From NCBI RefSeq assembly GCF_000283515.1, contig NC_015976.1:2046001-2110000 (forward strand): 64,000 bases of DNA. Direction: 5' to 3'. Made by a program: the position numbers and the translations under genes. The notes under the pieces were generated by a model. That model saw only the letters and a list, made by a program, of their open reading frames with translations. It ran no database searches and was not told the origin of the DNA. Shown here one piece after another: positions 50,315-61,277 of the stretch (the first letter of the stretch is position 1; each line of letters opens with the position of its first letter). Origin of the DNA: Sphingobium sp. SYK-6 (GTDB taxonomy: Bacteria; Pseudomonadota; Alphaproteobacteria; Sphingomonadales; Sphingomonadaceae).

Positions 50315-51532
50315 CTATTTCCGGCGGTTAGGCAATGCAAACTCGGAGGGCTTGAGACCGCTCGCCGCTCTCCCGTAGCGGCTCATTGCACTATCCCATG
50401 TGAAAGCAAAATGTTGCGCAGCACTGTTAACATCGCGCCACACCCGCTGTAACCCGTGGCCGTCATAGATACCAGACCCACCCGATGCTTCGAAGATCCT
50501 GGTCGCCGCGTAGCGTGCGGTCTGCGCCGCCCAGGCCCAATCGCGCGGGATCCTGGCGCGATCAAGCGGCGAAATGTCCGCCGGTGAATGCGCCCGGTCA
50601 ATCAATTCGGCATCGCGTAACACCAGCGCAAGCGCCGCATCCACCTCGGCCGAAGCCTGGGCAATTCGCGCATAGGTGGCCGATTGTTCGCCAAGTTCGA
50701 CATCACCCGCGTCAGACAGGCGCTGGCCCAACTGTTCGGCGAAATTCCGCACGGCGCCTTGCGCCATGCCAATCGGCGCCCCGATGATCGAAAAGGGCGC
50801 GATATCGGCAAACGGCATACGATAGATTGCACCCTTATGCGCGTTCGCGCCCGGCGAGTTGCCGCTCAGCATCTCGGCAAGCGATACCGAGCGATGGGCC
50901 GGAATGAAGCTGTCCGCGATACGGATCGTGCGGCTTCCAGTGCCGCGCATGCCGACCGTATACCAGTCGTCGACGACTTCGATCTCGCTGCGCGGGATCA
51001 CGAAGAAACGCGGCTCGAAACTGCCATCCGCGCGCGTGATACCGTTGCCGATAATGACCCAGTCGGCAAAGTCGATACCCGAGCAGAACCGTCCGTCGCC
51101 TCCTTGCAGCCGGTATCCGCCTTCGACTTCCTCGACCTTTCCGGCGAGCCGGAAAACCGTCGCGATCAAGGCGTCCGGGTTGGAGAAGACATCGTCCTGC
51201 GCCGCGGCTGGAAACAGGTTCAATAGCCAGCTGTGTCCGGCCAACACGCCATAGACCCACCCGGTCGAGCCACAGACGGCGGCGATTTCGGCGGTCACCC
51301 GGACGAGATCGGCAAAGCCGAGTTCGCTGCCGCCCAACGTCTTGGGCGTGACGATATTGAAAAGGCCCGACTGACGTAGTTCGTCGATCGTCGCGTCGGA
51401 CACATGTCGATCCTCGTCCACCATCCGGGCACGCTCCCGAATTGCGGGCAGGAGACCCCGAACGCGATCAAGAGCGTCGGCGCTGTCGGCGATCAAAGTC
51501 CGTCCCTCGCCAATCGTTGGATTAGTAGCCAT
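50315..51532 (-). CDS. Flavin-dependent monooxygenase, acyl-CoA-dehydrogenase fold (HsaA/group D-like)
   Basis: Protein of 405 residues with the acyl-CoA dehydrogenase fold used by two-component flavin monooxygenases such as HsaA and 4-hydroxyphenylacetate-type hydroxylases. Blocks are VDEDRHVSDATIDELRQSGLF, CGSTGWVYGVLAGHSW, GRFCSGIDFADWVIIG, GMRGTGSRTI and, at the C-terminus, SGIYDGHGLQRVWRDVNSAAQH. The catalytic Glu of true acyl-CoA dehydrogenases is not obvious. A flavin reductase gene lies at 56945. Expected to hydroxylate a phenolic ring ortho to OH before ring cleavage. GGGGA is 8 bases before the ATG. Confidence 0.86.
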   Translation of the reverse strand: MATNPTIGEGRTLIADSADALDRVRGLLPAIRERARMVDEDRHVSDATIDELRQSGLFNIVTPKTLGGSELGFADLVRVTAEIAAVCGSTGWVYGVLAGHSWLLNLFPAAAQDDVFSNPDALIATVFRLAGKVEEVEGGYRLQGGDGRFCSGIDFADWVIIGNGITRADGSFEPRFFVIPRSEIEVVDDWYTVGMRGTGSRTIRIADSFIPAHRSVSLAEMLSGNSPGANAHKGAIYRMPFADIAPFSIIGAPIGMAQGAVRNFAEQLGQRLSDAGDVELGEQSATYARIAQASAEVDAALALVLRDAELIDRAHSPADISPLDRARIPRDWAWAAQTARYAATRIFEASGGSGIYDGHGLQRVWRDVNSAAQHFAFTWDSAMSRYGRAASGLKPSEFALPNRRK

Positions 51533-51549: not shown

Positions 51550-52698
51550 TCAGCCGACAGCGGCCGTTTTCTGCTTGCGCAGTTCTTCTTCGATCTCCGC
51601 GCGACGCTCATCGGTCAGGAACCAGCGATAATGACCGCCCTTGGAGATCGGCGGCAGCCGCTCGGCAAGCAACGACCAGGTTTCCCCGCAATCATCGCTG
51701 TGGAAGATCTCGCCCGTGGCCGTACCGGCATAGAGACTGAAGGCGTCGCCGAAGCTGTGAAGGCCCATCGCCTCGATATTGCCAACGATTTTCGGAAGAC
51801 CCACACCCATCGTCTCCCAGGTGGCGCCGCCATCGGCGCTATATAGCACCGCAGGGTCTGCCATCGGCGTGTCCTGTTCGCGCCACTTGCGCGGCGGGTT
51901 TTGCGGTCCGCCCATGATCACGCCATTTTCGTTACGCGGATCCAGGAACATGGCGTCCGGGTAACCGATGCGATCGTCCCGGGTGGTCAGATGCGTCCAC
52001 ACCCCATGCGCGCTGCGATAGAGCCCTTCGCCCCCGTCCATGAGGAAATCGTCCGGATCCGACGGCCTGATGAGCACGCGGTGATTGTCGTTATAGAAGA
52101 AATCCTCGCTCGACTCGTAACCTGTGACTTCGTCCCAGGTCTCGCCGGCATCATCGGACTTCAGCAGCGCGCCCTGTTCGATACAAATATAAATCTCGTC
52201 GGGACGATCCGGGTGAAAGGCGACATTCTTGACATGCGCCACATGCGGCGGCGGCGGGAACGTCCATTTGTCGGTGTTCTTGACCTTGAGCATGCCGGGC
52301 AACGCCGTCCAGCTCCTGCCGAGATCCGTCGATTTATAGAGCATCGGCGGCTCGGTGCCCAACCAGAGGACCGTCCCTTCCTCGCGCTGCTGCGCCGCCA
52401 GCGTATAGATGTGGCGGCTTTGCAGGCCTTCGTTATACGGCGTCCAATTCTCGCCAAGATCCTCGCTGACCCAGAGGCCCGCCTCATAATGGCCACCCGC
52501 GAACAGCAGCCCGGATTCGGGCTCATGCAGAATCGCGCTGATATGATAATCGATCAGCTTGCGATCGACCAGCCGCCAGGGCTCGCCCGGCGCGCGCTCG
52601 AAAATATGGACCCCATGAAGCGTCGCCGCGAGTAGGCGAGTCGCCGGCCCTTCACCCGTCGTAACGGTTCCACCATTGCAGGATAACAGTGCCAGCAT
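51550..52698 (-). CDS. Asp-box (BNR-repeat) beta-propeller protein
   Basis: Protein of 382 residues with five S-x-D-x-G-x-T/S-W Asp-box repeats: SEDLGENWT (about 78), STDLGRSWT (123), SDDAGETWD (181), SADGGATWE (287) and SDDCGETWS (334). These form the blades of a sialidase-like propeller. No signal peptide is visible and the other sialidase active-site residues are not evident, so a sialidase role is not supported. ATG 52698 has GAGGAG 6 bases upstream. It is the first gene of the leftward unit with the monooxygenase and GntR genes. Role in the pathway unknown. Confidence 0.8.
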   Translation of the reverse strand: MLALLSCNGGTVTTGEGPATRLLAATLHGVHIFERAPGEPWRLVDRKLIDYHISAILHEPESGLLFAGGHYEAGLWVSEDLGENWTPYNEGLQSRHIYTLAAQQREEGTVLWLGTEPPMLYKSTDLGRSWTALPGMLKVKNTDKWTFPPPPHVAHVKNVAFHPDRPDEIYICIEQGALLKSDDAGETWDEVTGYESSEDFFYNDNHRVLIRPSDPDDFLMDGGEGLYRSAHGVWTHLTTRDDRIGYPDAMFLDPRNENGVIMGGPQNPPRKWREQDTPMADPAVLYSADGGATWETMGVGLPKIVGNIEAMGLHSFGDAFSLYAGTATGEIFHSDDCGETWSLLAERLPPISKGGHYRWFLTDERRAEIEEELRKQKTAAVG

Positions 52699-52776
52699 GT
52701 CTTTCTCCTCGTCCTTAACCGGTCCGGCCGAGTTCTCGGCGCGGCCCAAATGCCGCAGGGAAGCCAAACCGCCTTG

Positions 52777-52837: not shown

Positions 52838-53887
52838 ATGACGCCAGAAGCTGCGACGGACGCCGGAAGAGACCCCCTCATCATCGACTGCCACGGACAT
52901 GTGAGCGCGCCGGATGCGCTCTGGGTTTATAAGTCTCTACTGTTGTCCCACCGCGGCGAGCATGGCCGGAAGTTTCCCGAAGTAACCGACGAGGAAATTC
53001 TCCACTTCGCCAACAAGAGGGAAATGGGCCCTTGCGGGCATCTCGACATGCTTGATCGCGCCGGCACGCATATGCAACTGCTCTCGCCGCGGCCCTTCCA
53101 GCAGATGCATTCGGAAAAGCCCGGCAAGCTCGTCCACTGGTTCACCGAGGAAACCAACAACATCATCGCGCGCACGGTCAAGCTGCTGCCGGAGCGGTTC
53201 TTTGGCGTCGCGGGCATACCGCAGGTCGCCGGAGACCCGATCGAGGGTGTCCTCCCCGAACTGGAGCGTGCGGTGAAGTCTCTTGGCTTCAAGGGATGCC
53301 TGCTCAACCCCGATCCATTCGAAAACCGGCCGGGCACCGAGCCGCCCGCGATGGGCGACCGCTACTGGTATCCCCTGTACGAGAAATTGTGCGAACTCGA
53401 CGTCCCGGCCCATATCCACAGCGCATCATCGCACTCCGAGCGCTCGCCCTACACCCTCAACTTCCTGCTGGACGAAACAACGGCCGTTTACGGGCTTCTC
53501 CATTCGGACGTGTTCAAGGATTTCCCGACCCTCAAGATCGTCGTGAGCCATGGCGGCGGGGCCATTCCCTACCATGCCGGGCGCTTCCACGCCTCGGCGC
53601 TGCGGCGCGGCGGGAATTTCTACGAGCAGCTGCGTCAGCTCTATTTCGACACGGTCCTCTACAATGAGGAATCGCTGCGCCTACTCATCAAGACCGTGGG
53701 CGTCGACAACTGCCTGTTCGGCGCTGAATGCCCGGGCGTCGGCTCGGCCGTAGACCCGCAGACCGGGCATACGCTCGATCATATCTCGCCCTTCATCCGG
53801 GGATTCGACTGGCTGACGGACGAGGAAAAGCAGAAAATCCTCGCGGGCAATGCGATCCGCGTGTTCAACCTGGAAGGATTTGACTGA
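52838..53887 (+). CDS. Amidohydrolase, LigJ/LigY-like (4-oxalomesaconate hydratase or meta-cleavage hydrolase family)
   Basis: Metal enzyme of 349 residues. Metal-binding motif DCHGHVS is near residue 18, then SPRPFQQMHSE, LPQ-like GIPQVAGDP, HIHSASSHS near 200, VVSHGGGAIPYHAGRFH near 236, and FGAECPG with DPQTGHTLDHISPFI near 290-310. The overall layout matches the LigJ hydratase of protocatechuate 4,5-cleavage and the related LigY hydrolase. It is the first gene of a rightward operon and its stop overlaps the dioxygenase start. It should act on a ring-opened acid made by that dioxygenase. LigJ versus LigY cannot be decided from sequence alone. Confidence 0.87.
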   Translation: MTPEAATDAGRDPLIIDCHGHVSAPDALWVYKSLLLSHRGEHGRKFPEVTDEEILHFANKREMGPCGHLDMLDRAGTHMQLLSPRPFQQMHSEKPGKLVHWFTEETNNIIARTVKLLPERFFGVAGIPQVAGDPIEGVLPELERAVKSLGFKGCLLNPDPFENRPGTEPPAMGDRYWYPLYEKLCELDVPAHIHSASSHSERSPYTLNFLLDETTAVYGLLHSDVFKDFPTLKIVVSHGGGAIPYHAGRFHASALRRGGNFYEQLRQLYFDTVLYNEESLRLLIKTVGVDNCLFGAECPGVGSAVDPQTGHTLDHISPFIRGFDWLTDEEKQKILAGNAIRVFNLEGFD

Positions 53888-54879
53888 TGGCTGAGATCGT
53901 CCTTGGCATCGGCACGAGCCACGGCCCGATGCTTGTCACACAAACCGAGCAATGGCGTTCGCGCCTCGCCTTCGATCAGAGCGTCAACCACGCCTGGCGC
54001 GGCGGTTCCTGGTCCTATGATCAGTTGGTCGCTGAGCGCGCCGATCAAAATTTCGCCGCGCAGATCACGCCCGAAGCGATGACAGCGCACAATGCGCGCT
54101 GCCAAGCTTCACTCGACCAACTGGCGGAGATATTCTCGGAGGCCAAGATCGATGTCGCAGTCATTCTCGGCAATGATCAGATGGAGATATTCGACGAACG
54201 GCTCGTGCCCGCTTTCTCCGTCTTCTATGGCGACACGATCACCAATTACGAGTTCCCGCCCGAGCGTATGGCGGCGTTGCCACCGGGCATCAACCTGTCC
54301 GTGGCGGGCTATATTCCTTCAGGCGGCGCCGAATATGCCGGCCAACCCGAACTGGCGCGATCGATCATCGCCCAGGCAATGGCCGACGAGTTCGATGTCG
54401 CGGCGATGAAGGCCCTGCCCAAGCCGGAAACGCCCCACGCTTTCGGCTTCGTCTATCGTCGCATCATGCGCGATAATCCCGTGCCCAGCGTGCCGGTGCT
54501 CGTGAACACTTTCTATCCGCCCAACCAGCCCACCGTGCGGCGCTGCTATGAATTCGGCAAGTCCGTGCTGCGCGGCATCCAGGCCTGGGAAAGCGATGCG
54601 CGGGTGGCCGTGCTGGCCTCGGGCGGTCTCACGCATTTCGTCATCGACGAGGAGATCGACCGGCTATTCTTCCAGGCCATGGAAGATCGCGACATCGCCC
54701 GGCTGGCGGATCTGGGCGAGGCGATCTTCCAGGACGGCACGTCCGAGCTCAAGAACTGGATCCCGCTCGCCGGCATGATGGCCGAACTCGGCCTCGACCA
54801 TGAAATCCTCGATTATGTGCCCTGCTATCGAAGCGAAGCGGGAACCGGCAATGCGATGGGTTTCGTCTGCTGGCGATGA
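53887..54879 (+). CDS. Extradiol ring-cleavage dioxygenase, class III (LigB type)
   Basis: Non-haem iron(II) dioxygenase of 330 residues. It begins MAEIVLGIGTSHGPMLVT with the His ligand of the iron site, then NDQMEIFDERLVPAF and YTH-like PSVPVLVNTFYPPNQP, and SGGLTHFVIDEEIDRLF with the catalytic His. No separate LigA-type alpha subunit gene is present nearby. Start and upstream stop overlap by 1 base. It should open a catechol-type ring between hydroxyls and the neighbouring carbon. LigZ-like or protocatechuate-like specificity remains open. Confidence 0.88.
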   Translation: MAEIVLGIGTSHGPMLVTQTEQWRSRLAFDQSVNHAWRGGSWSYDQLVAERADQNFAAQITPEAMTAHNARCQASLDQLAEIFSEAKIDVAVILGNDQMEIFDERLVPAFSVFYGDTITNYEFPPERMAALPPGINLSVAGYIPSGGAEYAGQPELARSIIAQAMADEFDVAAMKALPKPETPHAFGFVYRRIMRDNPVPSVPVLVNTFYPPNQPTVRRCYEFGKSVLRGIQAWESDARVAVLASGGLTHFVIDEEIDRLFFQAMEDRDIARLADLGEAIFQDGTSELKNWIPLAGMMAELGLDHEILDYVPCYRSEAGTGNAMGFVCWR

Positions 54880-54932
54880 ACAGCTGAAAATATGCGCGCC
54901 CCTGGGGCGCCTTCCTGTGAGAGGATAGCTTG

Positions 54933-55601
54933 ATGGACCAAAACAATATGCTTGTGGCGCGCCTGAAGCGGCTGGATTGTTGCGCCGTGTCAGACGCGAT
55001 GGATCGCCTCAAGATCCGCGGCCAGGTGACGGAACTCGCCCAGCGATCGGGCAAGGGCCGGATCGCGGGACGCGCAGTGACGGTGCGCCTTGGAACCGGC
55101 GATCCGCCGCCGGGCCCGCCCCGCCACCTGGGCACGACCGCGATCGAAGCCGCCGGCGCTGACACTGTGATCGTGGTGGAGCAAAAGACCGGGGTTGAGG
55201 CAGGATGTTGGGGTGGATTGCTGACCCTGGGCGCGAAAGTGCGCGGAGTGGCGGGCGTCGTGGCGGATGGACCGGTGCGGGATATCGACGAGGCCCAGGG
55301 CTACGAGTTTCCGATCTTCACGAACCGCACCACCTGTCTCACGGCACGCGGGCGCGTGGTGGAAAAGGAAACCAACGGGACGGTGACGATCTGCGACGTC
55401 ACCGTCGAGCCGGGCGATTATGTGGTCGCCGACCAGAGCGCATGCCTCTTCATCAAGTCTGCCGACATCGAACGAGTGCTGGACACCGCCGAGGAGATCG
55501 TCGCCCGCGAAGCTGCGATGGCCAAGGCGATCCTGGCCGGCACGCCGATCAGCGAGGTCATGGGCGGAAACTACGAGCATATGCTTGAAAGCAAGGATTG
55601 A
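54933..55601 (+). CDS. RraA/LigK-fold protein 1, lacks acidic residue of the aldolase motif
   Basis: Protein of 222 residues. It shows the RraA core WGGLLTLGAKVRGVAGVVADG and RD. The aldolase signature D/E-X20-R-D reads G-X20-R-D here (Gly in WGGLL, then R-D 20 residues on), as in RraA itself rather than in HMG/CHA aldolases. ATG 54933 has GAGAGG upstream. It is one of three consecutive paralogs; perhaps it acts as a decarboxylase, tautomerase or accessory protein. Reaction unknown. Confidence 0.83.
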   Translation: MDQNNMLVARLKRLDCCAVSDAMDRLKIRGQVTELAQRSGKGRIAGRAVTVRLGTGDPPPGPPRHLGTTAIEAAGADTVIVVEQKTGVEAGCWGGLLTLGAKVRGVAGVVADGPVRDIDEAQGYEFPIFTNRTTCLTARGRVVEKETNGTVTICDVTVEPGDYVVADQSACLFIKSADIERVLDTAEEIVAREAAMAKAILAGTPISEVMGGNYEHMLESKD

Positions 55602-55609
55602 GAACCGGA

Positions 55610-56263
55610 ATGAGCGAAGAAAACGTCACGCGAGCCGCGCGCCTCGACACCGCAACGATCAGCGACGCGCTCGATCGGCTCGGGATCGTCGGCCAATGCT
55701 ACGAGATCAAGGGACGCGATCCCGGCTTCCGCATGGCAGGCCGCGCCTTTACCATGCGCTGCGGACCCGCCGCCAATCCGCCGGGCACCGTCGGCGATTA
55801 CATCGATGAAGTGCCGGAGGGCCATGTCGTGGTGATCGACAATGGCGGACGCACCGACGCCACCATCTGGGGCGACATCCTGACGGAGATCGCGCATCGT
55901 CGCGGTCTTGCCGGCACGGTCATCGACGGCATCAACCGCGACGTCGCCCTCTGTCGTGAGCTTGGTTATCCGATCTTTTCCAAGGATCATTGGATGCGCA
56001 CCGGCAAGGACCGCGTCCAGGTCGAAGAGATGCATTGCGTCGTCAATATCGGCGGCGCGCGGGTCGCGCCCGGAGATCTGCTCCGCGGCGATCCCGACGG
56101 TGTCGTCGTCATCCCGGCCGAGCACGAGGAAGTGGTGCTGGCCGCCGCCGAGGAGATCCATGAGGCCGAGGAGCATATCCGCCAGGCCGTACGCGGCGGC
56201 ATGCGGCTCGACGAGGCGCGCACGCAGTTCAAATATCATCAACTCCAGACGCGAAAGGCATAG
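55610..56263 (+). CDS. RraA/LigK-fold protein 2, aldolase motif present
   Basis: Protein of 217 residues with WGDILTEIAHRRGLAGTVIDG and RD, that is a full D-X20-R-D signature as in 4-carboxy-4-hydroxy-2-oxoadipate/HMG aldolases. N-terminal SDALDRLGIVG is typical of the family. ATG 55610 is used; a TTG 12 bases upstream overlaps the previous stop. Expected to cleave a hydroxy-oxo diacid to pyruvate plus a second product, or to decarboxylate oxaloacetate. Substrate not known. Confidence 0.83.
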   Translation: MSEENVTRAARLDTATISDALDRLGIVGQCYEIKGRDPGFRMAGRAFTMRCGPAANPPGTVGDYIDEVPEGHVVVIDNGGRTDATIWGDILTEIAHRRGLAGTVIDGINRDVALCRELGYPIFSKDHWMRTGKDRVQVEEMHCVVNIGGARVAPGDLLRGDPDGVVVIPAEHEEVVLAAAEEIHEAEEHIRQAVRGGMRLDEARTQFKYHQLQTRKA

Positions 56264-56275
56264 GCGGTACCGCGC

Positions 56276-56941
56276 ATGACCAAAGTCGATCCCAAATGGC
56301 GCATCCGCTCCGATGGCTTTGCCCGCGTCCATCCCGATCTGGTCAAGCAGGCGAAAGCCCTCTCGAGCGCCACCATACATGAAGCCGGCGGCAAGATCGG
56401 TGTCATGCCGCCCGAAATCAAACCCGTCCATCCGCATTTTCGCGTGTGCGGCTCGGTGTTGACAGTCCATTCGCCCCCCGGCGACAATCTCTGGCTGCAT
56501 TATGCGATCTATGCGGCGCAGCCAGGCGATGTGCTGGTCGTCCACTGCAACGGCGCCTATGACCACGGCTATTGGGGCGAAGTCATGTCGACGGCGGCAA
56601 AAGTCCGGGGTCTCGGCGGTCTCGTGATCGATGGTGGCGTGCGCGACTATACATTGCTCGATGAGGTCGGCTTTCCCGTATTTTGCCGCGGTCAATGCAT
56701 TCGTGGCACCGGCAAGGACACGCAGGCGATCGGGTGGATCGGTGCGCCCATCCTGTTCGGAGACCTCGTCGTTCGCTCCGGCGATCTCGTCTTCGGCGAC
56801 AATGATGGTGTCGTGATCGTCCCCTCCGACAGGGCAGAAGAGGTCATTCTCGCCTCAAAGAAGCGCGATGCCGACGAAATCGACATCTGCCGTCGTCTCG
56901 AGGCAGGCGAAACCACGCTCGACATTTACGGTCTGGGCTGA
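56276..56941 (+). CDS. ligK: 4-carboxy-4-hydroxy-2-oxoadipate aldolase-like protein (LigK type)
   Basis: Protein of 221 residues closest in layout to LigK: SSATIHEAGGKIGVMPPEIKP near residue 30, PGDNLWLHYAI near 70, PGDVLVVHCNGAYDHGYWGEVM, E-X20-R-D, and GDNDGVVIVPSDRAEEV near 170. It should split the hydratase product into pyruvate and oxaloacetate. Thirteen bases separate it from the previous gene, and the flavin reductase follows after its stop. Of the three paralogs this is the best aldolase candidate. Confidence 0.85.
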   Translation: MTKVDPKWRIRSDGFARVHPDLVKQAKALSSATIHEAGGKIGVMPPEIKPVHPHFRVCGSVLTVHSPPGDNLWLHYAIYAAQPGDVLVVHCNGAYDHGYWGEVMSTAAKVRGLGGLVIDGGVRDYTLLDEVGFPVFCRGQCIRGTGKDTQAIGWIGAPILFGDLVVRSGDLVFGDNDGVVIVPSDRAEEVILASKKRDADEIDICRRLEAGETTLDIYGLG

Positions 56942-56944
56942 CCT

Positions 56945-57487
56945 GTGGGCGTTTCGGCCGATGAGTTCCGGGAGGGCATGCGCAGGCTCGCCGCGAGCGT
57001 AACCGTCTTGACCACGCGGCTGGACGACGAGGCCCGCGTCGGCATGACGGCAACGGCCGTGACCTCTGTCTCGGGAGATCCGCCGACGCTATTATGCTGT
57101 GTCAATCGGGCCAACGCCACCAGAACAGCGTTTGCGCAGGCGGGCGTCTTCGCGGTCAACGTTCTGGCGGCGGGGGATAATGATCTGGCGACCCGTTTCG
57201 CCACACCGATGGCGCCAGAGGAGCGGTTTACCAGCGGCGCGTGGACGACCCTGTCGACGGGCGCGCCGATCCTTGAGACCGCCGTCGCTTCTTTCGATTG
57301 CCGCATCATGCAGACAACGGAAATCGGCAGCCACAGCATCTTTTTCGGTGAAGTGCTCGCCGTCGCCTTGCGCGGGCCGCACGTGATGCCGCTGCTCTAT
57401 GCCCATGGCGGCTACGGCAAGTTCGCCGGCCCCCATCCTTCATTCCAGGATCTTATGTGGACCCCCGACTGGCAGGTGTACGACTGA
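56945..57487 (+). CDS. Flavin reductase, HpaC/HsaB-like
   Basis: Protein of 180 residues of the flavin-reductase domain family. Blocks are MRRLAASVTVLTTRL, GMTATAVTSVSGDPPTLLCCVNR, FAVNVLAAGDNDLATRFA and FFGEVLAVALRGP. GTG at 56945 follows the ligK stop by 3 bases with a weak ribosome site, so coupling is likely. It should supply reduced FMN or FAD to the monooxygenase at 50315. Cytoplasmic. Confidence 0.9.
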   Translation: MGVSADEFREGMRRLAASVTVLTTRLDDEARVGMTATAVTSVSGDPPTLLCCVNRANATRTAFAQAGVFAVNVLAAGDNDLATRFATPMAPEERFTSGAWTTLSTGAPILETAVASFDCRIMQTTEIGSHSIFFGEVLAVALRGPHVMPLLYAHGGYGKFAGPHPSFQDLMWTPDWQVYD

Positions 57488-58171: not shown

Positions 58172-58723
58172 ATGTTTAACCTGCGTTCGACGACAGCGGC
58201 ATTCCTTATTCCCTGCGCCCTTCTGATGGCCAATGCCCACGCCCAGACGCCTGCCGGCGCACAGGCGGGGAGCGCGGTCCCTGAGAACCAGCCGCAGACG
58301 GAGGCCGAGCGCAAGGCGTTCGCGCCGGATGACAAGTCGCCACTCGCCGTGGTCAACGCTTTCAACCAGATGGCTTTTTTCGATCGCCGTCCGATCGAGG
58401 CGTTCAAACGGTATCTTGCTGACGATTTTATCGAACGCAGTCCCGATTTTGCCCATGACGGTCATGGCAGCGATAAGGCGGGTCTCATCGCCTTCTTCGA
58501 AACCCGCGGCTGGAAAGAAGGAGAAGCGCTCAAGGACACGATCTATCAGGTGATCGGGGATGGCGAGCGCGTGGCGGTTTTTCACAAGGTTACGATGAAT
58601 GACAAGGATCGTGGCACGGCATTTGTCGATATCTTCCGCGTCCGGGACGGTCTGATTGTCGAACATTGGGCGATCAGCCAGCCGATCCCGGCCAACACGA
58701 CGCCTCGCCACAGCATGTTCTGA
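58172..58723 (+). CDS. Exported SnoaL-like protein
   Basis: Protein of 183 residues with a signal peptide (MFNLRSTTAAFLIPCALLMANAHAQ, cleavage after AHA), a Pro/Gln-rich linker and a SnoaL domain: FNQMAFFDRRPIEAFKRYLADDFIER, DGERVAVFHKVTMND and DIFRVRDGLIVEHWAISQPIP. The ending matches the EHW-x3-QPIP signature of other exported SnoaL proteins here. AGAGGACC is just upstream. Last gene of the ring-cleavage run; expected in the periplasm. Ligand unknown. Confidence 0.82.
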   Translation: MFNLRSTTAAFLIPCALLMANAHAQTPAGAQAGSAVPENQPQTEAERKAFAPDDKSPLAVVNAFNQMAFFDRRPIEAFKRYLADDFIERSPDFAHDGHGSDKAGLIAFFETRGWKEGEALKDTIYQVIGDGERVAVFHKVTMNDKDRGTAFVDIFRVRDGLIVEHWAISQPIPANTTPRHSMF

Positions 58724-59197: not shown

Positions 59198-60469
59198 ATG
59201 CTCTCGCGAGAGGACAATGAGCTGCTCGTTCATGTGGGTTCTGGTACCGCCATGGGCGATCTCATGCGCCGTTTCTGGATGCCCGCGCTTTTGGAAAGCG
59301 AACTTCCCGAAAAAGACGGGAAGCCGGTGCGCATTCGCCTGATGGGGGAGGATCTGGTCGCCTTCCGGGATAGCGAAGGCCGGATCGGCCTGCTCGACGA
59401 GCATTGCCCCCATCGCGGCTCCTCGCTTGCTCTGGGCGTGAACGGCGAGTGCGGTCTGCGCTGCCTCTTTCACGGCTGGAAGTTCGACGTGACCGGCCAG
59501 TGCACGGACACGCCCGCCGAGCCAGAAGGCGCCACGCTCGCCAAGGCGATGCGCGTCAAGGCCTATCCGACCCGCGTCGCGGGTGGCATGATCTGGACCT
59601 ATATGGGCCCCAAGGAAGCCGAGCCGCCCTTCCCGCATTTCCCTTGGTTCGATATGCCCGAAGGCCATTGCGAGGCGTTCAAGGTCATCTACGAATGCAA
59701 CTACGCCCAGGCGATCGAGGGCGCCATCGACTCCGCCCATGCCGGCGTCCTGCACCGGGAGAGCCCGTGGGGCGAAGAGGCGAAATATCCGCACGAACGC
59801 GATCTGCGCCCCAAACTGGAAGTTGAATTCACCAATTATGGGCTGCGCTACTGTGCGGTGCGGAAGGACGGCGATCAAGGTCATGCCCGCATCACCCAGG
59901 TGCCGCTGCCGTTCTGGACTTTCATTCCGTCCGATGGAGGAAACTCGCCAGTGTATCGCCGCAATCGGCGCCTGATCAATGCCTTCGTGCCGCGCGACGA
60001 TGTGACGACATGGCACATCCAGTTCTTCTATGACGAGACGCACCCCATCGATCGCGAGCATCGCATCGCCGAGGCCGGCACGCAGCATGACAAGGATTTC
60101 TTCAAGCTCGTCGGCAACAGGCAGTGGTACAATCAGGATCGCGAGATGATGCGGACCACGAACATGTCCGGCATCGTCGGTATCGCCGCGCAGGACCATG
60201 CCGTCAGCGAGACCATGGGGCCGATCGCCGATCGCACCAAGGAACATCTCGGCCGTACCGACATGGCTGTCGTCGCCTGGCGGCGGCTGATGCTCAAGGC
60301 AGCCCGCGAGCTGGCAACGACCGGAACCCTGCCCCAGGCGGCCCAGGCCAATCTCGACTGGAGCAAGATCACGGCAGAGACCTTCACCTTCCCATTGGAA
60401 GAGAAGAGCTGGAAGGACGTGGTCCCGCTGCCCCAGGAGATGCATCCGAGCCTGTCGACCGCGGCCTGA
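59198..60469 (+). CDS. Rieske oxygenase, phthalate/LigXa-like
   Basis: Oxygenase of 423 residues, longer than VanA types and like the phthalate 4,5-dioxygenase or 5,5'-dehydrodivanillate O-demethylase (LigXa) branch. The start LSREDNELLVHVGSGTAMGD is characteristic. Rieske ligands are CPHRGSSL near 70 and CLFHGWKF near 89; the mononuclear site is IEGAIDSAHAGVLH near 175. AAAGGAG precedes the ATG. It needs ferredoxin and reductase from elsewhere, perhaps those at 30.7-32.3 kb. An amidohydrolase gene follows 13 bases later. Substrate unknown. Confidence 0.92.
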   Translation: MLSREDNELLVHVGSGTAMGDLMRRFWMPALLESELPEKDGKPVRIRLMGEDLVAFRDSEGRIGLLDEHCPHRGSSLALGVNGECGLRCLFHGWKFDVTGQCTDTPAEPEGATLAKAMRVKAYPTRVAGGMIWTYMGPKEAEPPFPHFPWFDMPEGHCEAFKVIYECNYAQAIEGAIDSAHAGVLHRESPWGEEAKYPHERDLRPKLEVEFTNYGLRYCAVRKDGDQGHARITQVPLPFWTFIPSDGGNSPVYRRNRRLINAFVPRDDVTTWHIQFFYDETHPIDREHRIAEAGTQHDKDFFKLVGNRQWYNQDREMMRTTNMSGIVGIAAQDHAVSETMGPIADRTKEHLGRTDMAVVAWRRLMLKAARELATTGTLPQAAQANLDWSKITAETFTFPLEEKSWKDVVPLPQEMHPSLSTAA

Positions 60470-60482
60470 GCATCGCTGCATC

Positions 60483-61277
60483 GTGATTGTCGACACACAT
60501 TGCCACGCTTCCTCGCGCTGGTATGAACCTATCGACACGCTCCTGTTCAACATGGACAGGTGCGGCGTCGATAGGGCCGTGCTCATCCAATTGCTGGGAA
60601 GTACGGACAGCGCCGACATGCGCGCAGCCCAACGCGCGCATCCCGACCGGCTCCGCTATGTTGCCGCGATCAATCCCGGCGCGCCCGATGCAGTGGCCGC
60701 GATCGAAGCTGCGGCTGCCGAGGGCGCGGTGGGACTTCGCATGCGCGCCGCGTGGCGCAGCCCGGGAGACGATCCACTGGCCCTATGGCGCGCGGTGGCC
60801 AGCAGCGGATTGCGGGTGTCGATGGTGGGCCCAGCCTCCAGTTTTACAGATGGCGAACTCGCTGAAATCGCGCTTGCCTGCCCCGATCTGCCGATCATTC
60901 TGGAACATCTGGGCGGACTTGGCCGCCCAGATGTTGGAGATCGCGCCGCCGCGCTGCGTGCGGTCATCGCTCTTGCAAGCCATCCCAACGTGATGCTGAA
61001 GCTGCCCGGCCTCGGTCAATTGGCCCCGCGTCTTTCCGGCATCGATGCTGCTGGCGCACTTCCCCTGGACATGAAAGGCGTCGAGCCGCTGCTCGCCTCT
61101 ATCCTCGATGCGTTCGGTGCTGACCGGTTGATGTGGGGAAGCGATTTCCCGCCGGTCGCCAGCCGGGAAGGTTATGCCAACGCCCTCGGCTGGACACGCG
61201 ATCTGATCGATCGCGTGTCGCCCGGCGCGGCCTCCCTCATCTTCGAAGAGACGGCCGCACGCGTTTTCGGTTTCTGA
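60483..61277 (+). CDS. Amidohydrolase family 2 protein
   Basis: TIM-barrel hydrolase of 264 residues with the metal motif DTHCH near residue 4-8, ILEHLGGLG near 140 and LMWGSDFPPVASREGY near 220. It starts with GTG 60483, 13 bases after the Rieske stop, so it is probably cotranscribed. Related proteins include 2-pyrone-4,6-dicarboxylate hydrolase and decarboxylases. Likely acts on a lactone or carboxylated intermediate formed after the oxygenase. Substrate unknown. Confidence 0.82.
   Translation: MIVDTHCHASSRWYEPIDTLLFNMDRCGVDRAVLIQLLGSTDSADMRAAQRAHPDRLRYVAAINPGAPDAVAAIEAAAAEGAVGLRMRAAWRSPGDDPLALWRAVASSGLRVSMVGPASSFTDGELAEIALACPDLPIILEHLGGLGRPDVGDRAAALRAVIALASHPNVMLKLPGLGQLAPRLSGIDAAGALPLDMKGVEPLLASILDAFGADRLMWGSDFPPVASREGYANALGWTRDLIDRVSPGAASLIFEETAARVFGF

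Follow-up and report, generated by a model that had tools for sequence, protein, structure and literature searches.

What do three consecutive genes of the RraA/LigK fold do in an apparent operon of Sphingobium sp. SYK-6 that also encodes a dioxygenase of the LigB family and a C-C hydrolase resembling LigY? The genes, here called P1, P2 and P3, lie in the stretch of contig NC_015976.1 that was analysed (64,000 nucleotides; hereafter the window), in which all plain coordinates below are positions:

54933-55601, + strand: P1, RraA-fold protein of 222 amino acids (aa), motif G-X20-R-D-I-D-E (of the form G-X20-R-D-X2-E), putative tautomerase
55610-56263, + strand: P2, RraA-fold protein of 217 aa, motif D-X20-R-D, putative hydratase
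56276-56941, + strand: P3, RraA-fold protein of 221 aa, motif E-X20-R-D, putative aldolase for 4-hydroxy-4-methyl-2-oxoglutarate (HMG) and 4-carboxy-4-hydroxy-2-oxoadipate (CHA)

The answer that we favor, with a probability of roughly 45%, is that P1 is a tautomerase, P2 a hydratase and P3 an HMG/CHA aldolase, acting in the lower part of a meta-cleavage pathway; we infer the substrate, what P1 and P2 catalyze and how their two steps are divided between them. An original prediction, made from the letters of the window, had placed three tandem RraA/LigK-fold genes here, and these are indeed present on the same strand, all far above the Pfam gathering score of PF03737 (P1 112.8, P2 128.5 and P3 138.6 bits; gathering score 24.5). 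P1 starts at ATG 54933, with a TTG at 54930 as a possible alternative, and P2 at ATG 55610, while 53, 8, 12 and 3 bases, respectively, separate the dioxygenase stop, P1, P2, P3 and the start of a flavin reductase gene. A recent tandem duplication was rejected, given a mutual identity of 27-35% and three separate clades.

The metal site distinguishes the three proteins in an alignment of 245 rows (239 without six references; the rows are related and hence not independent), numbered by the positions of the HMG/CHA aldolase structure 3NOJ. Within this close set, P1 rows have G102, R123, D124, D126, E127 and E199 in 82 of 82 cases each, P2 rows have D102, R123, D124 and E199 in 79 of 79, and P3 rows have E102 in 77 of 78, with R123, D124 and E199, as well as the 3NOJ residues D70, N71 and H75, in all 78. 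The G, D and E that had been noted 21 residues ahead of R-D are therefore real, and the aligned counts at positions 102, 123 and 124 show that they are not due to chance. P1 also has an invariant Glu three residues past the Asp of R-D (82/82), resulting in G-X20-R-D-X2-E, the type seen in the T. thermophilus RraA 1J3L, whose aligned motif is G-X20-R-D-T-E-E. E. coli RraA reads A-X20-R-Q and differs from P1 at both places, so the earlier statement, by which the first protein and E. coli RraA have the loss of the acidic residue in common, was wrong. The motif of LigK from SYK-6 is D-X20-R-D, which it has in common with P2 and which differs from the Glu of P3; the idea that only the third protein looks like LigK consequently survives for overall sequence and clade, and fails for the motif.

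On overall sequence, P3 passes NF006731, the NCBIfam equivalog for HMG/CHA aldolase (192.2 bits; cut-off 179), and both P1 (75.4) and P2 (86.8) fall below it. TIGR02798 (ligK_PcmE; cut-off 304.5 bits) is passed by LigK of SYK-6 (434.4) and failed by P3 (175.2), P2 (82.4) and P1 (65.8), and because P3 misses this cut-off we call it LigK-like, not LigK. None of the three passes NF006875, the equivalog of the RraA RNase E regulator (P1 35.8, P2 53.6, P3 54.4 bits; cut-off 136). A tree of 107 rows, some of its long branches flagged, separates P1, P2 and P3 each by one branch (support 100/93, 92/99 and 99/98, respectively); P1 and P2 are sister clades with a joint branch of 99/98, and LigK and 3NOJ group with P3.

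An extended alignment included 42 distant rows (L142 duplicates L010, and the RraA proper, L147:3357, was excluded). D102 is kept in 93 of 94 P2 rows and E102 in 85 of 88 P3 rows. Among 99 P1 rows, 93 combine G102 with E127 and six have D or E at 102 and no acid at 127, never both and never neither; the six are distant members of the P1 clade (L137, L138, L139, L140, L141 and L147). To judge from these sequences, the pattern reads as a single metal-side carboxylate that was relocated. A strict rule that exactly one of positions 102 and 127 is acidic is true for all 99 P1 rows and was discarded for the family, as it fails elsewhere: acids stand at 102 and 127 in 3/88 P3 rows and also in LigK, and at neither in the P2 of L144. 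For T. thermophilus RraA and yeast Yer010Cp, Mazurkewich reportedly described the form G-X20-R-D-X2-E/D in 2014 as an alternative metal motif, and we take Yer010Cp to carry the G-X20-R-D-X2-E type. Glu199 is presumably supplied by the neighboring subunit. A passage of PMC5065237 mentions "one of two motifs", and names Arg123, Asp124 and Glu199 of the P. putida enzyme for enolate stabilization and metal binding.

The predicted structure of P1 is confident (predicted local distance difference test, pLDDT, 91.6) and that of P2 moderate (82.2), with the remaining four models at 54-58. A fold search with the P1 model returned 3K4I (Z 25.7, root-mean-square deviation (rmsd) 2.2, 204 aligned), yeast YER010Cp (2C5Q; Z 24.6, rmsd 2.7, 211 aligned), 3NOJ (Z 23.7, rmsd 2.1, 198 aligned) and 1J3L (Z 19.1), and the differences in Z among these matches carry no functional ranking. 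Matches outside the family, at Z 6.5-8.4 and maybe reflecting a mere common arrangement, comprise swivel domains (PPDK, enzyme I, dihydroxyacid and 6-phosphogluconate dehydratases, aconitase X) and others.

Rather than being an oddity of a single operon, P1, P2 and P3 make up a module of three clades that is conserved across loci. From a scan for P1 that gave 113 relatives we kept 80 (59-89% identity), and counts of loci refer to these 80, each covering 8 kilobases (kb) on either side of P1 where the contig allowed, with L007 and L008 set aside. The complete trio is present in 75/80 loci, ordered P1-P2-P3 in 72 and P1-P3-P2 in three; the other five contain only P1-P2 (two), P1 and a P3-like gene (two), or P1 alone at a contig end (one), and among them L080 stops right behind P1, while the contig of L084 is 3.4 kb long. 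P1 and P2 occur together in 77/80 loci, and a LigB-type dioxygenase in 70/80. No LigY-like gene was seen in 57/80, including L046, which ends within an amidohydrolase gene of either kind (its first 35 matched residues fit LigY-like, 50 bits, and LigJ, 43 bits, about equally). In these 57 loci the dioxygenase, present in 48, has a mean identity of 37% to that of the window, and the means are 69% for P1 (57 loci), 73% for P2 (55) and 61% for P3 (55): the trio is constant while the upstream genes vary. P1 itself is rare, being found in 2/398 Pseudomonadota genomes at E<=1e-50, SYK-6 among them, and, at E<=1e-45, in 9/399 genomes of the order to which G720 belongs, where several matches are distant. 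The expectation that three consecutive copies are unusual was not confirmed: it is P1 as such that is rare, and the trio is usual wherever a close P1 occurs (75/80 loci). The P1-P2 pairing extends to Actinobacteria: in Rhodococcus koreensis four consecutive genes encode a P3-type protein, a LigB dioxygenase, P1 and P2, and Streptosporangium roseum has a stand-alone LysR-P1-P2-P3 set, whose P2 has no acid at 102.

What ties P1 and P2 to a particular step is a second pair of such genes in SYK-6, in the operon for 5,5'-dehydrodivanillate (DDVA). The gene at C1:821199-822206 encodes LigY, all 332 residues of which match 6E6I (783 bits), and directly upstream, head to tail, are a LigZ-like dioxygenase gene, P1' and P2'; the pair, at L007:7860-9202 (C1:819859-821201), thus lies between the LigZ-like and LigY genes, and the P1' stop and P2' start overlap by one base. 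P2' is 83% and P1' 52% identical to the window copies. A passage of PMC12997858 gives ligZ as SLG_07720 and ligY as SLG_07750, and this gap in the tags leaves room for two intervening genes. Another genome of the same species keeps the P1'-P2' pair and has no close match to the window LigY-like gene, for which reason the window operon seems accessory. In the open-licence PubMed Central literature we found no function for P1, P2 or P1'-P2', and no activity for 3K4I.

Excerpts of earlier work supply the chemistry: LigY products are 4-carboxy-2-hydroxypenta-2,4-dienoate (CHPD) and 5-carboxyvanillate (PMC6874591), and a proposed route takes CHPD through a hydratase to HMG and through an HMG aldolase to two pyruvates, with the CHPD hydration enzyme of SYK-6 listed as "not identified" in Table 2 (PMC12673573, 2025). 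We propose that the trio could provide the later steps encoded by a meta-cleavage operon for rings of the 3-substituted 4,5-dihydroxybenzoate type. The LigB-type dioxygenase would open the ring and the LigY-like hydrolase would, by analogy with LigY, free CHPD; P1 would convert the dienol to the 2-oxo-3-enoate, P2 would carry out the hydration of CHPD to HMG, and P3, with its E-X20-R-D motif, would cleave HMG into two pyruvates. All three may share one device, a metal- and Arg-stabilized enolate of a 2-oxo acid, and differ in the proton or bond that is moved. In the DDVA operon, P1'-P2' stand where hydration enzymes would be expected, and LigK, encoded elsewhere, could be the aldolase, the window operon bringing its own P3. 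We know of no report of tautomerase or hydratase activity in the RraA fold, and the case against P1 and P2 being aldolases is one of clade and context rather than of chemistry.

The assignment of steps draws on gene content. No LigU relative was found at E<=1e-4 in the 80 P1 loci, and L057 alone has a full-length LigJ-type gene of at least 60%; elsewhere in the set, long matches to LigJ are at 35-39% and mostly LigY-type genes. The L057 gene (62%) reaches 538.6 bits to the 4-oxalomesaconate hydratase 2GWG vs 219.9 to LigY, and L135 (genome G1108) has a LigJ-type gene at 64%. Both genomes keep P1 and a P3-like gene, with no P2 ortholog found in either (best partial matches <=40%), and this pattern of LigJ in place of P2 points to P2 as the hydratase, leaving P1 as the tautomerase.

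The suggestion that the paralogs split successive steps fits the evidence best, although the steps are not those first written down. Decarboxylation is not required, as HMG gives two pyruvates in the route outlined in PMC12673573; needed are CHPD hydration (with tautomerization) and HMG aldol cleavage. A role of the trio in protocatechuate 4,5-cleavage was rejected, because LigJ (6DWV matched over 341 residues, 807 bits) and LigK (TIGR02798, 434.4 bits) of SYK-6 are both encoded elsewhere, in L008. With its LigZ/LigY-type enzymes, the window operon is similar to that for DDVA (biphenyl).

In L139 and L140, which belong to one genus, a stand-alone LysR-P1-P2-P3 set is followed by a 407-residue gene, which in L139 encodes a class I/II aminotransferase, with an alpha/beta hydrolase gene also following there. 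CHPD is the enol of 4-methylene-2-oxoglutarate, the keto acid that corresponds to 4-methyleneglutamate, an amino acid of plants. Among the stand-alone operons (L139, L140 and L144), that of L139, with its aminotransferase and hydrolase, suggests 4-substituted glutamates as substrate. If an amino acid were fed into the pathway at CHPD in this way, trios that lack a dioxygenase would be accounted for; for the 4-methyleneglutamate route, the open-licence PubMed Central literature yielded nothing relevant. A broader claim is tentative, and we would not lean on it: that with an RraA-fold tautomerase (P1) and hydratase (P2) plus P3, one fold converts CHPD or 4-oxalomesaconate to pyruvate, supplies the CHPD hydration of the SYK-6 DDVA pathway, and in LysR-P1-P2-P3-aminotransferase operons degrades 4-methyleneglutamate.

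Several observations weigh against a tautomerase-hydratase-aldolase series. L057 and L135 are one lineage in the tree, making the LigJ-for-P2 swap a single event. Genome G931 (L136) has P1, a LigB dioxygenase, a 65% LigY-like gene and a distant amidohydrolase after P1, with no P2 ortholog in the genome (89% complete, 6% contaminated) and no LigJ match in the stretch, so that P2 is either dispensable to this layout or replaced by something else. P1-P2 is also found without P3, and the stand-alone trios L139, L140 and L144 have no dioxygenase within the stretch seen. At the metal site, Gln occurs at 199 in 5/99 P1 rows, all distant, and one distant P2 (L144) has no acid at 102. The tautomerase could instead be the SnoaL-like or the YCII protein of the window operon: an excerpt of PMC12314914 presents the SnoaL-domain protein MgaD as a putative CHMA tautomerase of strain NGC7. 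A SnoaL-like gene is seen in 1/80 loci (35%) and a YCII gene in 4/80, all sphingomonads, with P1 in all 80 by construction of the set. A hydratase of another kind, UxuA, is proposed for Paenibacillus in a section of PMC12673573, and the DDVA pair itself might include an aldolase.

The alternative that survives best, although we consider it unlikely, is that all three proteins are class II pyruvate aldolases/oxaloacetate decarboxylases with differing substrates, P1 and P2 acting on further 2-oxo acids that arise in the pathway while CHPD is hydrated by some other protein. Arg123, Asp124 and Glu199 are retained in all three within the close set, as this would have it, and T. thermophilus RraA, with its P1-type motif, is said from the same 2014 work to show aldolase and decarboxylase activity. 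However, P1 and P2 form clades apart from LigK and 3NOJ and stay far below the NF006731 cut-off (75 and 87 vs 179 bits), and between the ligZ-like gene and ligY there is no other hydratase candidate, although one may lie elsewhere in the genome; moreover, HMG conversion to two pyruvates needs one aldolase and no decarboxylase, at least as sketched in PMC12673573.

Less probable again, and improbable by our estimate, is the idea that P1 and P2 form one hetero-oligomeric enzyme, CHPD hydratase for instance, whose active sites lie where the two proteins meet. It would account for the two being neighbors throughout Pseudomonadota and Actinobacteria, for their sister clades and for the one-base gene overlap in the DDVA operon, and Glu199 is among the acidic residues by which the P. 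putida enzyme binds its metal, according to a passage of PMC5065237. Within the close set, each protein nevertheless retains its own Glu199, Arg123 and Asp124, and P1 occurs without a detectable P2 ortholog in three genomes (L057, G1108 and G931, the last 89% complete), which weakens an obligate P1-P2 form of the hetero-oligomer first suggested and leaves the idea standing as a rival. That P1 is an RNase E regulator of the RraA type, not an enzyme, is very improbable and was rejected on score, length, motif and context, since against the shared fold and the missing acid at 102 stand an RraA equivalog score of 35.8 vs 136 bits, a length of 222 aa vs 161 aa in E. coli RraA, the invariant G102...R-D..E127 and Glu199 (82/82) vs A...R-Q, and a LigB-type dioxygenase in 70/80 loci.

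The genes around the trio look like a catabolic cluster:

50315-51532, - strand: HsaA-like flavin-dependent monooxygenase, oxygenase component, in 13/15 loci having a LigY-like gene of at least 60%
51550-52767, - strand: BNR-repeat protein, in the same 13/15 loci as the HsaA-like monooxygenase
52838-53887, + strand: meta-cleavage C-C hydrolase of the amidohydrolase family, LigY-like (465 bits to 5VN5, a LigY structure)
53887-54879, + strand: extradiol dioxygenase of class III (LigB family), sharing 46% identity with the LigZ-like protein of SYK-6
56945-57487, + strand: flavin reductase, 3 bases past P3
57457-57783, window operon: YCII protein
58172-58723, window operon: SnoaL-like protein
59198-60469, + strand: Rieske oxygenase with LigXa_C domain
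60483-61277, + strand: second amidohydrolase (PF04909)

The product of 52838-53887 is nearer LigY, its closest solved relative being 5VN5 (465 bits), than 4-oxalomesaconate hydratase (LigJ; 210 bits). The flavin reductase is a possible partner of the HsaA-like monooxygenase. The BNR-repeat gene, adjoining that of the monooxygenase, is absent from all of the other 65 loci.

Other loci combine the trio, or P1-P2, with different neighbors. In L023 (Burkholderiales; Cupriavidus example) the trio is part of an operon of acyl-CoA type that has no LigY-like gene and contains two acyl-CoA dehydrogenases, TctC, a thiolase, a ChsH2-like protein, a CoA-transferase III, LigB, P1-P3, an enoyl-CoA hydratase and a thioesterase; domains were tested for L023 alone, and open reading frames are conserved at the same places in ~40 loci. 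The ring-cleavage product in this Cupriavidus example must differ, and is perhaps 4-oxalomesaconate (OMA). A RidA-family gene lies beside or near P1-P2, along with a 41-43% LigY-like amidohydrolase, in L091, L092, L145, L146 and L143, whose hosts are pNL1, Sphingobium fuliginis KK22 p1, two Bradyrhizobium plasmids and Rhodococcus koreensis; these RidA neighbors hint at amino-substituted ring-cleavage products.

The link of the P1/P2 genes to the CHPD hydration step is the most useful result of this study, as lignin biphenyl breakdown has its model in the SYK-6 DDVA pathway, for which the alkene-hydration enzyme appears as "not identified" in the table of PMC12673573. If the proposal is true, the DDVA pathway closes and the C6 fragment released by LigY becomes open to engineering, a function is gained for genes annotated as "RraA family" or "menaquinone methyltransferase" in catabolic clusters of this kind, and one enolate-stabilizing active site would have been retuned from aldolase to hydratase/tautomerase by the shift of one carboxylate.

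Among known systems, the DDVA operon of SYK-6 (ligZ, ligY) likewise combines a LigB-family dioxygenase, P1, P2 and a LigY-type hydrolase in one gene run, with the LigY-like proteins 61% and the LigZ-like proteins 46% identical between the two operons, whereas P3, the flavin monooxygenase, the reductase and the BNR protein belong to the window operon. The closest parallel in chemistry is the 4-oxalomesaconate route, given in part of PMC12314914 as LigU/GalD (OMA tautomerase), LigJ/GalB (KCH hydratase) and LigK/GalC (CHA aldolase): three successive steps after extradiol cleavage, the final enzyme having the RraA fold, on 2-oxo-4-carboxy-3-enoates whose conversion would equal that proposed for the trio, in which, by contrast, all three proteins are RraA-like. 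P3 shares with LigK/GalC (3NOJ) its clade, a pass of NF006731 and the retained D70-N71...H75, and differs in Glu for Asp at 102 and in failing TIGR02798; P1 and P2 sit in other clades. P1 resembles T. thermophilus RraA (1J3L) in fold and in G-X20-R-D-X2-E, although its clade lies beside P2 and away from 1J3L in the tree. The nearest solved structure to P2 is PSPTO_3204 of P. syringae (3K4I; E 2.5e-44), deposited under the label of an uncharacterized protein.

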